Assembly: GCF_015557635.1 (NCBI RefSeq)
Contig: NZ_JADNOP010000010.1
Location: 62,001-126,000 of the forward strand
Direction: 5' to 3'
From: Fusicatenibacter saccharivorans
Lineage (GTDB): Bacteria; Bacillota; Clostridia; Lachnospirales; Lachnospiraceae
Length of the DNA: 64,000 bases
Every line of letters starts with the position of its first letter. Within the stretch, counting starts at the first letter, position 1. A model generated the notes under the pieces. It was given only the letters and a program-made list of their open reading frames with translations, did no database searches and was not told where the DNA came from. The translations under genes were made by a program, and so were the position numbers. This document shows, in pieces, positions 5,546 to 64,000 of this stretch.

Positions 5546-5569
5546 AATACCTGTCAATATACATATTCG

Positions 5570-5736
5570 GCAATAGAGGCGCGAAGGCTAAGAGTAGCTG
5601 TCCTGAGACAACGGGGTCTGGGACGGGCAGGGAAAGGAGCATTCGCCGAAACGGGGCAGTTCCCGAAAAACTGTCTGCGTTGGGGTACAGTCGAACAGGC
5701 TGTGCACTCTCACCGTACTGGTGGAGGAGCTATTGC
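5570..5736 (+). promoter_or_regulatory. lysine riboswitch (L-box)
   Basis: The sequence carries the conserved blocks of the lysine aptamer in order: AATAGAGGCGCGAAG then AAGAGTA; GGGAAAGGAG followed by CGCCGAA; and finally CTGT and TGGAGGAGCTATT. P1 pairs GCAATAG (5570-5576) with CTATTGC (5730-5736). A transcription terminator follows 22 bases later. In this class lysine binding usually favours termination and lowers expression of lysine synthesis or transport genes. Confidence 0.92.
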
Positions 5737-5757
5737 TTCATGAACGTAGATTTAATG

Positions 5758-5925: not shown

Positions 5926-7404
5926 ATGATAGCATTTCTTAACTGGCTGGACGGTGTCCTTTGGGGCGTGCCGCTGATCGCGCTGATGATTCTGACCGGT
6001 CTGTACTTTACCGTTCGTTCTGGATTTTTCCAGTTCCGTCACTTTGGCTGGATTATGAAGAGAACCGGCGGAAAACTGTTCCAGAAAGAAGACAAAGCAA
6101 GTGAAGGAAAGGGTATGCTTTCCTCGTTTGAGGCGATTTCGACCGCTATCGGCGGTACCGTAGGATTCGGTAATATCGCCGGTGTTGCAACTGCAGTTGC
6201 AGCAGGTGGCCCGGGAGCCATTATGTGGATGTGGCTTTCGTCTCTGCTTGGTATGATATTAAAACAGGTTGAGGTTACCCTCGGCTGCTACTACCGTCAC
6301 ACCAACGAAAAAGGTGAGTACTACGGCGGTCCGACTTACTACATGGAGTGCGGACTTGGCGAGGAGCGCCACTGGGGCAAGCTGTGGCTGATCCCGGCGC
6401 TCATCTTCGGCATCGGTATTTTCTCCACCTTCTTCGTAACCTCTTCCAACCTGACCGCATCTCAGGTCGTAGCCGGTGCGTTCGGTATTGAGAATATCAA
6501 TCTTGGAAGCTTCAAAGTAGAAGGCGTTATCGTGATGGGCGTTCTGCTCTGCATTCTGACCTATGTCGTTACAAGCGGCGGTACGAAGAAAATCGCAAGT
6601 CTGTTCAGCAAGCTCGTTCCATTTATGAGCGTTCTTTATATCTTGATGGGAATTGGCATGATCATCATCAACATCAACCGCGTTCCTGGCGTATTTGCAG
6701 CCATCGTAACAAACGCATTTACCGGAACAGCAGCGATCGGCGGTTTTGCCGGCTGCGCAGTCAGCGAGATTATCCGTGTGGGTATGGCGCGTTCCGTATA
6801 CTCCAATGAGGCTGGATGGGGTACTTCTCCAATGATCCATGCTTCCGCAAAAACACCGCATCCGGTAGAGCAGGGTCTGTGGGGATCTTTCGAGGTATTC
6901 TTTGATACCATGGTTATCTGTACGATCACCGCACTTTCCGTTATCTTAAGCGGAAACTGGACCGACGGAACGAACGGCGGAACACTTGCTTTAAGTGCAT
7001 TTGCAAGCGGATTCGGCAAATTTGGAAGCATCCTTCTGGCAGTCATTATGGTCATCTTCACTGTAACGACTTCCGGCGGATGGTTCACCTACTATCTGGC
7101 AATTCTGGAGCATCTGTATAAAAAAGAAGGCAAGATGAAAGATATCGTCATGAAAGTCTTCTACGCAGTCCGCGCTCTGCCGGGCGTACTGTGGACGATC
7201 TATCTGGTAAAGACCAACAACCAGGGCTTTATCTGGACTGTCGTTGATATCACATCTGCGATCCCGACCTTCGTCAACGTAGCAGTGATCCTGATTCTCT
7301 CGAACCAGTATTTCAAACTGCTGAAAGACTACAAAGCAAGAAACTTCGGCCAGGGCACGGTAGACAAGAACGCCTGCCTGTTCTACGAAGAGAAAACGAA
7401 ATAA
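5926..7404 (+). CDS. AGCS-family amino acid:Na+ symporter under lysine riboswitch control
   Basis: The 492-residue protein has the AlsT/AGCS layout with about ten membrane segments. Signature stretches are GTVGFGNIAGVATA and later YSNEAGWGTSPM. AGCS transporters carry small neutral amino acids such as alanine or glycine with sodium across the cytoplasmic membrane. The start at 5926 is chosen for AGGGAGG 8 bases upstream; an in-frame ATG at 5788 overlaps the terminator T-run and would add 46 residues with no hydrophobic character. Because the gene sits directly behind a lysine riboswitch, lysine or a related cationic amino acid is a plausible substrate. That is inference. Confidence 0.9.
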   Translation: MIAFLNWLDGVLWGVPLIALMILTGLYFTVRSGFFQFRHFGWIMKRTGGKLFQKEDKASEGKGMLSSFEAISTAIGGTVGFGNIAGVATAVAAGGPGAIMWMWLSSLLGMILKQVEVTLGCYYRHTNEKGEYYGGPTYYMECGLGEERHWGKLWLIPALIFGIGIFSTFFVTSSNLTASQVVAGAFGIENINLGSFKVEGVIVMGVLLCILTYVVTSGGTKKIASLFSKLVPFMSVLYILMGIGMIIININRVPGVFAAIVTNAFTGTAAIGGFAGCAVSEIIRVGMARSVYSNEAGWGTSPMIHASAKTPHPVEQGLWGSFEVFFDTMVICTITALSVILSGNWTDGTNGGTLALSAFASGFGKFGSILLAVIMVIFTVTTSGGWFTYYLAILEHLYKKEGKMKDIVMKVFYAVRALPGVLWTIYLVKTNNQGFIWTVVDITSAIPTFVNVAVILILSNQYFKLLKDYKARNFGQGTVDKNACLFYEEKTK

Positions 7405-10292: not shown

Positions 10293-11552
10293 ATGAACGA
10301 AGAAATGAAAAACCAAACAGAACAGTTACCGCTTTTAAAAGTACACATGATGGGAAGTTTTTTCCTGGAGTACGGCGACCAGCCGATTTCCTTCCGGAAA
10401 ACAATGGCAACAAAATCGATGAGACTTCTGCAGATTTTCCTCTATAACAAGGACAATGGAATTTCCAGAGGAAGACTGTTGGAGAGCACATACGGAAGAG
10501 AAGATGTGGCGGACGCGGCAAACAGCCTGCGTGTCGGCGTACATCGCCTGAAAAGAGGCCTTGTCGAGGCAGGACTTCCGCAGTTTGAGTACATTTATAC
10601 ACAGAAAGGCGTTTACCACTGGACCAGCCCGATGCCGGTCGAGGTAGATGCGATTGATATCAAAAATAAGATCCTGGAAGCAGGAAAAGAGACAGACGAG
10701 AAAGCGCGCATGGATCAGATGATCGAAGCACTGGAGCTGTACACCGGAGAGTTCCTTGCAGATTTCGGCGAGGAAGAGTGGGTACAGGCGGAGCGCGCGC
10801 AGCTGAAAAAAGTATATTCCGATGCACTGAAAGAAGTAAGTGAGTATCTTCTGAAAAACGAGGAGTTCGATGAGCTGCAGAAGCTGACTTCTGTTGCTTC
10901 CGAACTGTATCCGTTCGACGAGTGGCAGGCAGTCCAGATGCAGGCGCTGATCGGCCTGGAGAGATACAAAGAGGCCATGAAACTGTACGAGCAGACCTCG
11001 AAACATTACTTTGAAGAGCTTGGCGTTACACCGAGCGAGAAACTGGTGGAGCAGTACCGCTATCTGGGAAGCCGCATGGGCAGCAGACACCGCGTGATCG
11101 AAGAGGTACAGGCAGATCTTCAGGAGAGCCCGGGAGAAAAGGGCGGAGCATTCTTCTGTTCCCTCGCCGGATTCCGTGACTGCTACCGACTTGTTTACCG
11201 TATGTCCGAGCTGAACGGACAGATGCCGTGGCTGATGCTGTGCACCATTACAGACGGAAAAGGTTACCCGGCAAAAGGCGGTCCGCGCCTTGACCGTATG
11301 TCCGAAAAGCTGCTTGAGGTAATGAAACGCAGCCTGCGTCATTCCGATTTCTTTGCAAAATACAGCCCGTCCCAGTATGTGATTCTGCTGCAGGGCGGCA
11401 ACCAGAGAGGATGCGAACTCGTCTACAAGAGAATCAGCGAGCGCTTCTCCGAGGAGAAAAAAGGCTGGGCAAAGAATCTGAAATACAGTGCACTGCCGGC
11501 AATTCAGACCGAAAAAGAGCTTGAGTTCTTAGAAGGAGACGATGTTTTATGA
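10293..11552 (+). CDS. SARP-like regulator with bacterial transcriptional activator (BTAD) domain
   Basis: The 419-residue protein begins with an OmpR/SARP-type winged helix: LLKVHMMGSFFLEYGDQPI, then a helix-turn-helix ending in SLRVGVHRLKRGL at about residues 75-90. A helical BTAD/TPR region follows (about 110-270, with ELYTGEFLADF and EWVQAERAQL). The last 140 residues resemble a degenerate GGDEF-like fold. Such regulators bind direct repeats and activate nearby genes. It stands upstream of the mannoside genes, so it may control them, but no target site was recognised. AGGAG precedes the ATG by 5 bases. Confidence 0.75.
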   Translation: MNEEMKNQTEQLPLLKVHMMGSFFLEYGDQPISFRKTMATKSMRLLQIFLYNKDNGISRGRLLESTYGREDVADAANSLRVGVHRLKRGLVEAGLPQFEYIYTQKGVYHWTSPMPVEVDAIDIKNKILEAGKETDEKARMDQMIEALELYTGEFLADFGEEEWVQAERAQLKKVYSDALKEVSEYLLKNEEFDELQKLTSVASELYPFDEWQAVQMQALIGLERYKEAMKLYEQTSKHYFEELGVTPSEKLVEQYRYLGSRMGSRHRVIEEVQADLQESPGEKGGAFFCSLAGFRDCYRLVYRMSELNGQMPWLMLCTITDGKGYPAKGGPRLDRMSEKLLEVMKRSLRHSDFFAKYSPSQYVILLQGGNQRGCELVYKRISERFSEEKKGWAKNLKYSALPAIQTEKELEFLEGDDVL

Positions 11553-11617
11553 TTCGCGTACAGCTGCTTGGAAGATTCCGCTTGCGCTGCATCTCGCTGC
11601 GGTTTCTCGTCCTATAA
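11549..11617 (+). pseudogene. start of a second SARP-like gene cut off by the 115-bp repeat
   Basis: An ATG overlaps the stop of the preceding regulator (ATGA). The first twelve codons read MIRVQLLGRFRL, the usual opening of an AfsR/SARP winged helix. From 11584 the sequence is that of the repeat element and the frame closes at 11617 after 22 codons. The simplest reading is a tandem regulator gene lost when the element or a deletion arrived. The evidence is short, so confidence is low. Confidence 0.35.
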
Positions 11618-11698
11618 AAATTCAGAAGCAGCTGTTCATTCCTGCAAGCAGGATCCACAGCCGCCTCTGAGTTTTTACATGGCTCTGAATAATTGTAA
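11584..11698 (+). repeat. 115-nt structured repeat, copy 1 of 3
   Basis: It shares its left end (GCGCTGCATCT), a TTCTCG block, a central TCATTC hairpin and its right end (GGCTCTGAATA) with 63886-64000 (inverted), and all but the left end with 43661-43773. The central stem is CCTGC/GCAGG here, CATGT/ACATG in the 43.7-kb copy and CATGC/GCATG in the last copy, so the base pairs change together. It interrupts the start of a SARP-like gene. Confidence 0.7.
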
Positions 11699-42866: not shown

Positions 42867-43556
42867 ATGGTGTTATTTCTAAAGGTGTTTCTTACCGAGT
42901 TCATCGCAGAGATGGGCGATAAGACGCAGCTCATGCTGATTGCGCTTACTTCGAAGTACAAGCTGAAAGACATTATCCTGGGAACCGCAGCCGCGATTCT
43001 GGTACTGAATGGAATGGCGGTTCTCGCAGGCGGCCTCGTCAGCGAATTCATTCCGGACTGGCTGATTAAGACGATTGCAGCACTCGCATTTCTTTACTTC
43101 GCAGCATCCACCATTTCCGGTGATGATGACGAGGAAGAGGAAGAAGGCGGCAAATCCAAAATTCGGTTCGCACCGCTCGCCGTTTTCTGTACGTTCTTCG
43201 TAGCAGAGCTCGGAGACAAAACACAGCTTACCGCAATCACCTTTGGTGCAAATGAAGGGATGGGATCCGCATTCGTTGTATGGATCGGATGTTCTCTCGG
43301 ACTGTTCGCAGCGGATATTCTCGGAATGCTGGTCGGCTATCTCTTAAAGAGCAAGACACCGGATGGGCTGCTGAATACACTGGCGTTTGTCATCTTTTCA
43401 ATTTTCGGTGTATACACACTTTACCAGGGACTGAAACTGATCAGCGCAAGCGTCTGTCCACTGCCGGTATGGCCGGTACTGATCGCTGCAACGGCTGTTT
43501 TTGTTGTTGCATGTGTCTGTCTTTTTGTGAAAAGAGAGAAGAAAAAAGCAAAATAA
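42867..43556 (+). CDS. UPF0016/GDT1 family Mn2+/Ca2+ exporter
   Basis: The 229-residue membrane protein has the two diagnostic ExGDKTQ repeats, EMGDKTQ at about 15-21 and ELGDKTQ near 114-120, separated by an acidic loop (GDDDEEEEEGG). Bacterial relatives such as MneA export manganese. It follows the CaCA gene by 12 bases with GGGGAATGG before the ATG and shares the same riboswitch. Confidence 0.92.
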   Translation: MVLFLKVFLTEFIAEMGDKTQLMLIALTSKYKLKDIILGTAAAILVLNGMAVLAGGLVSEFIPDWLIKTIAALAFLYFAASTISGDDDEEEEEGGKSKIRFAPLAVFCTFFVAELGDKTQLTAITFGANEGMGSAFVVWIGCSLGLFAADILGMLVGYLLKSKTPDGLLNTLAFVIFSIFGVYTLYQGLKLISASVCPLPVWPVLIAATAVFVVACVCLFVKREKKKAK

Positions 43557-43610: not shown

Positions 43611-43660
43611 ATGCGGCAAAATGAAAGTTTACCATTGAAGCATTTATAGGGTATAATATT

Positions 43661-43773
43661 TTGTAACTATTCAGAGCCCCATCTCGCCATATGAAATTCC
43701 AGAAAAATAGCTCATTCATGTAAACATGATTCGCGATTTTTCTTCCATTTCGCATGGCTCTGAATAGTTACAA
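43661..43773 (+). repeat. 113-nt structured repeat, copy 2 of 3 (perfect terminal inverted repeats)
   Basis: The ends are an 18-bp perfect inverted repeat (TTGTAACTATTCAGAGCC with its complement). The interior shares TCTCGCCATATGAAATT, TCATTC, the central CATGTAAACATG hairpin and TTTCGCATGGC with the copy at 63886-64000 in inverse orientation. The left end differs from the other two copies. It could be a MITE-like element or an RNA gene. It lies in a 463-base stretch (43557-44019) with a decayed gene. Confidence 0.75.
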
Positions 43774-43813
43774 TATTTTCAAATCATTATTTACGAGGAT
43801 GAAGGATAATAAC

Positions 43814-43963
43814 ATGTCTGATTTTAGTATCAACGAAATGCAGGAAATGCAGAAAGCGGGAAAAATGCGGACTGAAAAACAGAAGACCGGAATTGTATGG
43901 GATTCTCACAGGAGGACGAAAGTGAAAAACCGGAAGCTGCGTGGGAAAATCCTGTCCTTGTGA
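43814..43963 (+). pseudogene. remnant of a MazG-like pyrophosphohydrolase start
   Basis: A 49-codon frame begins MSDFSINEMQEMQK, which is how small MazG-like NTP pyrophosphohydrolases open. After that the sequence no longer fits the family and ends at 43963. GGATGAAGGA precedes the ATG. A different frame (from 43897) reads an acidic stretch and may be the remains of the gene tail. The match is short. Confidence 0.35.
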
Positions 43964-44019
43964 TAGTCAGAGGGATCAAGTATAATGAGTCATATAAAAT
44001 GTTGACGGGAGGGATTTGC

Positions 44020-45606
44020 ATGGGAAGTTATCTGAATCCGGGAAATGAAGCATTTGCGGTTGCATTAAATTCTGAGATTTATGTTGATAAAACAGGACTG
44101 CTGACTTATACGAATAAAGTCATGAACACTCTGCAGGGATATATCTGCAACAGCCGCCCGCGGCGGTTTGGAAAATCAATTACGGCAAATATGCTCACCG
44201 CGTATTACAGCAAGGGCTGCAGTTCGAAAGAAATGTTTTCCGGGCTGGAAATCAGCAGGGCAAAGGATTTTGAAAAACATCTGAATCAGTATGATGTGCT
44301 CCACTGGGATATCCAATGGTGTATGGAACCGGCAGGCGGACCGGAGCGGATTGTTTCTTATATCTCAGAAAAAACGATTTCGGAGTTAAAAGAATATTAT
44401 CCCCATATACTTCCAGAAGAAATCCGGTCACTGCCGGAGGCGCTGTCGCGGATCAACGCGGCATCCGGGACAAAATTTATTGTGATTATAGACGAATGGG
44501 ATGTTCTGATTCGTGACGAGGCGGCGGATCTCAAAACACAGGAAGAATATATCAATTTTCTGCGGGCGATGTTCAAAGGGACGGAGCCGACAAAATATAT
44601 TCAACTGGCATATCTGACAGGTATTTTGCCTGTAAAAAAAGAAAAGACACAGTCGGCGCTGAACAATTTCAAAGATTATTCGATGCTGTATGCCGGGCCG
44701 ATTGCACCATATGTAGGTTTTACAGAAACAGAAGTTCAAAAACTATGTGAAGTATATGGTCAGAAGTTTGAAGAAGTCAAACGATGGTACGACGGTTATC
44801 AGATTGGGAAATATCATGTATACAATCCAAATGCCGTTGTGAACCTGATGCTCGAAGGCGAATTCCAGAGCTACTGGTCCGGAACCGCATCCTATGAGGC
44901 GATTGTTCCGCTGATCAATATGGATTTTGATGGCCTGAAAAGTGCCGTAATCGAAATGCTTTCAGGAGATCATGTTCCGGTTGATGTTACCTCTTTTCAG
45001 AACGATACCGTTAGCTTCGCCAATAAAGACGATGTGCTGACGTATCTGATTCACCTTGGATATCTGGCCTATGACCGGACATTTAGAACTGCTTTTATTC
45101 CGAATGAGGAAATCCGTCAGGAATTGATTCTGGCAACGAAAAGGAAAAAATGGAATGAGTTGATTGTATTTCAAAAAGAATCAGAGCAGCTTCTGAAAGA
45201 TACAATTCAGATGAATGGAAACGCAGTAGCAAAAGAAATTGAAAAAATTCACAGGGAATATACTTCTGTGATTCAGTATAACAATGAAAACTCACTCAGC
45301 AGTGTTCTGTCCATTGCCTATTTGAGTTCCATGCAATACTATTTCAAACCAATCCGCGAATTTCCCGCGGGTCGTGGATTTGCAGACTTTGTGTTTATTC
45401 CAAAGCCGGAGTTTCAGAATTATTACCCGGCGCTTGTTGTGGAACTGAAATGGGACAAAAGCGTCAGAGCAGCATTAGATCAGATCAGAGACAGAAAATA
45501 TCCGGAGTCTGTTGCATGCTATGCAGGGGAGCTTTTGCTGGTGGGAATTAACTACAATGAAAAAACAAAAGAACATGAATGCCGGATTGAAAAGTATGAA
45601 AAATAA
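44020..45606 (+). CDS. AAA-ATPase-like / PD-(D/E)XK nuclease-like protein, paralog 1
   Basis: The 528-residue protein belongs to the AAA-ATPase_like plus PDDEXK_9 family. The N-terminal domain has YVDKTGLL and SRPRRFGKS in place of a standard P-loop, Walker B-like VIIDEWDVL near residue 155, and RWYDGYQIG. The C-terminal domain has GRGFADFVF and VVELKWDK, the nuclease-like D...ExK. The family is abundant in gut Firmicutes and Bacteroidetes and its role is unknown. GGGAGGG is 6 bases before ATG 44020. It is closely related to the gene at 51548-53146. Confidence 0.85.
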   Translation: MGSYLNPGNEAFAVALNSEIYVDKTGLLTYTNKVMNTLQGYICNSRPRRFGKSITANMLTAYYSKGCSSKEMFSGLEISRAKDFEKHLNQYDVLHWDIQWCMEPAGGPERIVSYISEKTISELKEYYPHILPEEIRSLPEALSRINAASGTKFIVIIDEWDVLIRDEAADLKTQEEYINFLRAMFKGTEPTKYIQLAYLTGILPVKKEKTQSALNNFKDYSMLYAGPIAPYVGFTETEVQKLCEVYGQKFEEVKRWYDGYQIGKYHVYNPNAVVNLMLEGEFQSYWSGTASYEAIVPLINMDFDGLKSAVIEMLSGDHVPVDVTSFQNDTVSFANKDDVLTYLIHLGYLAYDRTFRTAFIPNEEIRQELILATKRKKWNELIVFQKESEQLLKDTIQMNGNAVAKEIEKIHREYTSVIQYNNENSLSSVLSIAYLSSMQYYFKPIREFPAGRGFADFVFIPKPEFQNYYPALVVELKWDKSVRAALDQIRDRKYPESVACYAGELLLVGINYNEKTKEHECRIEKYEK

Positions 45607-63885: not shown

Positions 63886-64000
63886 TTGTGACTATTCAGA
63901 GCCATGCGAAATTTCAGAACAAATTGCGAATCATGCTTGCATGAATGAGCACTTTTTTCTGAAATTTCATATGGCGAGAAGCCACATCAAGATGCAGCGC
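63886..64000 (-). repeat. 115-nt structured repeat, copy 3 of 3 (at window end)
   Basis: Read on the minus strand this copy runs from GCGCTGCATCT to TAGTCACAA and matches 11584-11698 in length and order. It shares TTCTCGCCATATGAAATT, the TCATTC hairpin and TTTCGCATGGCTCTGAATAG with 43661-43773. The window ends exactly at its left boundary, so it may extend further. Confidence 0.7.

Follow-up and report, generated by a model that had tools for sequence, protein, structure and literature searches.

A small non-coding mobile element of gut bacteria with IS66-type ends and a covarying hairpin

Repeat copies and their genomic surroundings

The window, i.e. the whole 64-kb stretch of DNA analyzed here, is C1:62001-126000 of a 3.6-Mb host genome in 52 contigs. 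It contains three copies of a repeat, and none was found beyond those at the sites where the original prediction had placed them. A covariance model that contains no host sequence (R1) gives three matches in the window and no others up to E = 5, with E-values of 2.5e-13, 1.7e-9 and 8.6e-9, and these are the same three copies. The features are as follows (window positions).

11584–11697, minus strand: copy 1, a decayed element, left terminal repeat gone
11616–11676, minus strand: covarying hairpin of copy 1 (R1, E = 8.6e-9)
43655–43662, no strand: left 8-bp target-site duplication of copy 2, AATATTTT
43663–43771, minus strand: copy 2, with both ends and perfect terminal inverted repeats GTAACTATTCAGAGCC
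43692–43752, minus strand: covarying hairpin of copy 2 (R1, E = 1.7e-9)
43772–43779, no strand: right 8-bp target-site duplication of copy 2, AATATTTT
63888–64000, plus strand: copy 3, an element of 145 bp of which the first 113 bp are inside the window
63908–63968, plus strand: covarying hairpin of copy 3 (R1, E = 2.5e-13; tip GCGAATCATGCTTGCATGAATGAGC)

The right terminal repeat of copy 1 is at about 11681–11696 and has three mismatches; no second end is found at up to 5 mismatches. The hairpin of copy 1 displays an exchanged stem (CCTGC/GCAGG) and a differing outer stem. Copy 1 had been thought to interrupt the start of a SARP-like gene, however the SARP/BTAD gene (PF03704) at positions 10293–11552 is intact. 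A 22-codon reading from position 11549 (MIRVQLLGRF..., window 11549–11617) overlaps the 3′ end of this gene and runs into copy 1. No continuation of the reading was found in the three frames read across copy 1. Its translated sequence resembles a SARP start, and possibly a second SARP gene has been lost there.

At 109 bp, copy 2 is shortened internally, and its minus strand is the strand modelled as RNA. The 18-bp perfect inverted repeat attributed to it is real (43661–43678 and 43756–43773). Copy 2 sits between a GDT1-type transporter gene (42867–43556) and an open reading frame with AAA-ATPase_like and PDDEXK_9 domains (43897–45606).

Copy 3 extends 32 bp past the window edge, to contig position C1:126032, and no duplication is seen in its flanks, which match at 1 of 8 bases. 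The next open reading frame on its far side (L067 1045–2283, 412 aa) is apparently intact. A decayed gene had been reported beside one of the copies. It may be a 49-codon reading at 43814, immediately after copy 2, which is possibly a gene remnant. Elsewhere in the window there is a lysine riboswitch at positions 5566–5740 (RF00168, E = 6.7e-24).

Structure of the element and target-site duplications

A DNA search of the host genome shows a family of 10 long copies of 142–146 bp, the 109-bp copy 2, the decayed copy 1 and further deleted forms. Thus the figure of 115 nt given in the original prediction is not the size of the element. The long form begins with the terminal inverted repeat GTAACTATTCAGAGCC, continues with a long and then a shorter hairpin, and ends with the second terminal repeat. 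In Lachnospiraceae relatives the element versions are 85–165 bp in length (41 external elements) and have no transposase open reading frame. The long hairpin ends in a 25-nt tip, and two end types carry this same tip, GTAACTATTCAGAGCC and GTAACAGTTCAGCC, the latter in many relatives.

An exact 8-bp target duplication is present in 23 of the 41 elements outside the host genome that have both ends, and 28 of the 41 match at 7 or 8 of the 8 flank bases. Among 1640 mismatched flank pairs, used as a control, none was exact and six matched at 7 or 8 bases. Exact duplications of 4–7 or 9–12 bp are found in only 0–2 of the 41 external elements. Sorted by tip, exact 8-bp duplications are found in 21 of 37 tip-bearing and two of four tipless external elements. 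Two of 13 host elements, copy 2 among them, have an exact duplication, and three of the 13 match at at least 7 of 8 bases. The exact duplication is absent in 18 of the 41 external elements and in 11 of the 13 from the host. The host-genome copies look older. A search for empty sites gave two rows, neither of which is a real empty site.

The repeats belong to a mobile element of gut bacteria that is small and non-coding. The suggestion that they behave like a MITE is supported by the terminal repeats, the 8-bp target duplications and the presence in relatives of autonomous partners with near-identical ends. The accompanying suggestion of a REP-like element is not supported, the element being 145 bp in length with 8-bp duplications. 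REP units are single 20–40-nt hairpins without target duplications and are tied to a RAYT.

Distribution

Matches to the element at E ≤ 1e-4 are found in 54 of 397 genomes of the family, including the host; many are partial, and at most two candidates were scored per genome. Six other genomes of the genus of the host gave no match at E ≤ 1e-5. The number of end-pattern matches in a 2.4-Mb Roseburia genome is 285, compared with three for the reversed-pattern control. A Dorea genome has 49 (control 1) and a Eubacterium genome 47 (control 0). The elements are mostly intergenic; by crude open reading frame calls one of 52 is within an open reading frame. No orientation bias was detected relative to codirectional neighbors (12 same, 10 opposite and 5 undetermined, also by crude calls).

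A smaller hairpin module (query positions 18–64 or 18–102) is found without the tip in many Lachnospiraceae genomes, e.g. L103, G325:C13:18709 and G328:C1:869351-869678, with tandem copies about 122–125 bp apart in places. In addition, there are tipless miniature elements that have the GTAACAGTTCAGCC end and another body, at L279 24–164 and L281 34–174 (G404) and also at L280, L284 and L286. Those of L279 and L281 are 141 bp each, and have a changed right end and duplications of 8/8.

Twelve phage records match part of the element and none matches 80% of it. These are the human faecal phage records MT837746.1 and MT836949.1 and ten others, all without annotation, which match parts of the Dorea element, mostly its tipless half (within query positions 1–88). 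Plasmid records gave no element match, and in IMG/VR neither the ends nor the tip had an exact match.

The hairpin and its covariation

The arm changes originally noted, CCTGC/GCAGG, CATGT/ACATG and CATGC/GCATG, are present in the sequence. Alignment A3, from which the R1 model was built, is a gap-free alignment of 24 hairpins of less than 80% ungapped identity that come from other genomes only. One of its rows, L127, is itself a match to the Rfam family RF01699. A3 derives from 144 distinct tip-like segments, of which 131 are within the mismatch and flank limits. Outside the loci set aside as non-Lachnospiraceae or chance are 121 of the 131, and these gave 35 representatives (<80% ungapped identity). 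Seven of the 35 were removed by hand, after inspection and before the pairing counts: L207 and L230 (Bacteroidetes-like context), L212 and L217 (which look coding), L226 (unclear), L198 (no terminal repeat) and L082, a host copy with a broken stem whose removal favors pairing. For A3 a further four host rows were omitted, so that the model is independent of the host. Because most rows came from a scan pattern that fixes the tip positions, the conservation of the tip in A3 is partly imposed.

With one simple structure, 88.4% of the 576 cells of A3 are paired. The value is 69.7% with the 3′ letters shuffled (0 of 500 shuffles as high) and 25–46% with the partner slid by 1–3 columns. Changes on both sides are found somewhere in 17 of the 24 pairs, and the covariation score is 0.486 versus 0.153 for shuffled letters (0 of 500). 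The 20-pair outer stem, in 28 rows that include four host copies, is 74% paired versus 37–43% when slid by 1–4 positions. This strong covariation in a between-genome alignment supports the earlier reading of a structured hairpin.

The nt sequence of the 25-nt tip, on the strand that is also modelled by Rfam, is GCGAATC-ATG-CTTG-CAT-GAATGAGC. It is closed by GC pairs and contains a tandem G·A, an A-T and a T-A pair and one bulged A; a short stem carries the G(CTTG)C loop. Both GA tandems and the CUUG loop have unusual stability in RNA. Mean pairwise identity was determined for the 11 host copies that were found by whole-element BLAST and have a full 61-nt model match (thus without L072, which has 59 nt, the truncated L080, and L082). 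In a gapped alignment the tip has a value of 0.90, compared with 0.64 and 0.70 for the outer arms; a gapless arm identity of 0.54 is lowered by register shifts and exaggerates the contrast between tip and arms. G21, A22, A37, G40 and A41 are constant in 10 of the 11 host copies, and the eleventh has one substitution. The non-Watson-Crick positions of the tip are also kept in A3 rows L092, L093, L096 and L111, which are BLAST matches longer than the tip; row L119 was brought in by BLAST on the tip alone.

The outer stem varies widely in sequence yet stays complementary, even among copies within one genome. This would also fit a purely mutational process. The element would still be a MITE, however template switching between the arms of the quasi-palindrome would correct one arm from the other, with no selection for the fold, and hairpins in DNA are known substrates for template-switch correction. 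This is the main alternative explanation of the covarying stem. We consider it unlikely, in that such a process should erase the tip mismatches as well, yet these persist in the 10 host copies and in L092, L093, L096 and L111.

Long hairpins of Bacteroidetes terminate in the same tip; these loci were located by tip match:

L190 3254–3314, minus strand: tip hairpin
L157 4118–4179: tip hairpin
L172 204–264: tip hairpin
L140 5619–5679: tip hairpin
L120 7754–7813: tip hairpin
L169 7956–8000: tip hairpin

All six loci with Bacteroidetes titles have E ≤ 3e-4 by R1; these values are inflated by the choice of loci by tip, and the outer stem is the independent part. Two of eight pattern matches set aside as chance or unclear are below 1 by R1 (L226, 0.023; L217, 0.13). 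A tRNA gene is about 40 nt away in three of the five Bacteroidetes loci scanned with Rfam (L157, L172 and L190). The L190 hairpin is flanked on both sides by terminator-like hairpins. The Rfam scan of the L140 hairpin gave matches far below threshold only.

Relation to Clostridiales-1 RNA

RF01699 is the Clostridiales-1 RNA, a 166-nt family of candidate small RNAs, of type “sRNA”. Its model exceeds the gathering score four times, in L191, L127 and twice in L167, when sets of 13 and 18 loci, two of them common to both, are scanned. This represents three of 28 distinct non-host loci; a host locus, L068, is below the score. The L127 match (1584–1741) lies within a complete element (1581–1744), 3 nt inside each end, with flanks that match at 2 of 8. 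One L167 match (7218–7357) likewise lies 3 nt inside each end of a complete element (7215–7360), which has a duplication of 8/8. The L191 match is on an element whose left end is clear, and the second L167 match (6807–7000) displays no element ends.

Six of 12 host loci match RF01699 at E ≤ 1, the best at 1.7e-4, and none is above 48 bits. The window copies do not reach the gathering score and are not among these six; the independent R1 model shows that they have the same hairpin fold and tip as RF01699. Since all host loci are below the gathering score and the window copies are unmatched, the window family is best classed as a diverged relative of RF01699 and not as a formal member. A search of the titles and abstract beginnings of the open-access literature gave nothing that links Clostridiales-1 to a transposon.

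The listing of this family as probably RNA and not cis-regulatory (Weinberg 2010, PMC2864571, from a portion of the text) would agree with a stand-alone small RNA gene that happens to be repeated, with no transposon involved. This is very improbable in view of the exact 8-bp duplications, the ends shared with IS66 elements and the 285 end matches, against three of the reversed pattern, in one 2.4-Mb genome. The duplications refute a stand-alone gene as the full explanation, but it could survive in the form of a functional RNA carried by a transposon.

The probable mobilizing transposase

The element is likely mobilized by a single-ORF IS66 transposase of the ISBst12 type. GAM79, a complete genome that carries an element (L158), has two 1817-bp IS copies. 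Of the 16 bases of the element end, 14 and 15 are shared by the ends of these copies, which have 8-bp duplications (ATTTTTAT and AAAAAAAC), and the transposase displays the PF03050 domain (E = 1.2e-42). An IS in R. inulinivorans is 1829 bp in length with ends GTAACAG[T/C]TCAGCC (PF03050, E = 5.4e-19); its flanks match at only 2/8 and the element in that genome (L199) has the other end type. The IS copies of GAM79 and R. inulinivorans each have one reading frame of at least 120 codons, which is 485 codons long and contains PF03050. This fits the ISBst12 group. For ISDge4, a member of this group, the excerpted text of PMC12898284 gives ends GTGACTACTCAGCA/GTAACTGCTCAGCA and an 8-bp direct repeat; for IS66 elements generally, that of PMC11946415 gives 8-bp repeats and ends that begin GTAAGCG. 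Of the features expected of ISBst12-mobilized MITEs, the element has ends like those of an autonomous IS (that of GAM79, but of none found in the host genome), an 8-bp duplication and a small size without an open reading frame. Beyond the terminal repeat its body has no resemblance to the IS, and the autonomous IS is without the tip.

A pointer to an autonomous element came from the Dorea genome, where 13 contigs are broken off, at an end, shortly within the element end sequence; IS copies cause breaks in assemblies. Similar ends in genomes G307, G372 and G320 run into an IS66-type transposase reading.

The host draft assembly has three PF03050 matches, the intact one ending in GTAAGTAGG, and no autonomous IS with the ends of the element was found in it; the host copies therefore look stranded. 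The intact IS66 of the host (L064 3544–6207) was rejected as the mobilizer, its ends being GTAAGTAGGTAATC. It adjoins an open reading frame (L064 6321–7640) that resembles a group II intron-type reverse transcriptase.

Other candidates were rejected as well. None of the IS66 loci of relatives (L235–L263) has the ends of the element; five (L236, L238, L242, L247 and L248) have ends GTAA[G/C]CGTC and the rest are without convincing ends. Three IS66 loci of G108 have no clear ends, and no matching ends were seen at the nearest full-length relatives of the G372 transposase (in G110, G308 and G303). At the thresholds used, no IS66 match was obtained in three of six element-bearing genomes of one search, including the richest (G402), or in six of 11 of a second search. 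Collapsed or unbinned IS copies could explain such genomes. Phage and plasmid records gave no match to the autonomous IS ends, and IMG/VR gave no transposase relative.

The hairpin might instead be a DNA signal for transposition or replication, acting for example by end pairing or single-strand exposure. The element is mobile, and either strand of its DNA could adopt the fold (z −2.6 to −5.4), with energies that favor neither strand clearly. We regard such a signal as quite improbable. Exact 8-bp duplications flank the tipless elements L100 (AACAATTT) and L113 (AATGATTT), which are two of the four in the end-based set, and L279 (AAATTATG) and L281 (AAGACACG), whose right ends are changed. Two shortened host copies match at 7/8 by eye, where loss of the tip after insertion is possible. 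As tipless elements have exact duplications and the autonomous IS is itself tipless, the hairpin is probably dispensable for jumping.

Proposed origin and role

We propose, with a probability of about 0.78, that the repeat is a non-autonomous MITE moved in trans by an IS66 element of the ISBst12 type, that the hairpin is a passenger and that its tip is conserved by a role at the RNA level. The ends GTAACTATTCAGAGCC and GTAACAGTTCAGCC would be recognized in trans by the single-ORF IS66-family transposase, as their similarity to the IS ends suggests, and the transposase would insert copies and generate the 8-bp target duplication. The body would be a passenger that folds into a long hairpin, with an outer stem that is variable but paired and a tip that is nearly constant. 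For the hairpin itself an RNA-level role is favored: the tip would act in the RNA strand of transcripts that enter the element from neighboring DNA. It is probably bound or processed by a conserved RNA-binding protein or ribonuclease of the host, which would account for its conservation.

A broader proposal is put forward tentatively, and is more doubtful than probable. The catalogued small RNA may itself be a passenger that spreads by IS66-type transposition, with one tip, two end types and two IS66 lineages that have such ends, and the Bacteroidetes hairpins may belong here too. If true, a conserved RNA-binding protein or ribonuclease would make wide use of the tip as a site, and the MITE would be an RNA parasite, selfish or regulatory, by which such sites are spread through gut genomes.

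On the main proposal, the orphan Rfam family gains a likely origin, IS66 transposition, and its scattered copies an explanation. Two questions that were formerly mixed are separated here, i.e. the spread of the element, which concerns the ends, and the conservation of the hairpin, which concerns the tip. This separation makes tip function directly testable. The analysis also serves as a warning that an “RNA gene” defined by covariation can be a mobile element.

Comparison with known systems

The element resembles the ISBst12 group, including ISDge4 as presented in the excerpted text of PMC12898284, in its GTAAC...TCAG ends, its 8-bp duplications and a partner IS with a single transposase open reading frame. 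Unlike members of that group it has no open reading frame, and the likeness is confined to the terminal repeat (14–15 of 16 bases with the GAM79 IS). Clostridiales-1 RNA shares the hairpin with a GCUUGC loop, and two of the four matches above its gathering score lie inside complete elements. However it is catalogued as an sRNA gene, with mobility unmentioned in the available portion of PMC2864571. The window copies differ from it in their ends and in the 3′ hairpin.

The Correia elements or NEMIS of Neisseria and bcr1 of Bacillus cereus are also of MITE size, have terminal inverted repeats and fold as RNA. Their ends, hosts and target duplications are other than those described here. In contrast to these families, the present element displays a slowly changing tip that is kept across several genera.
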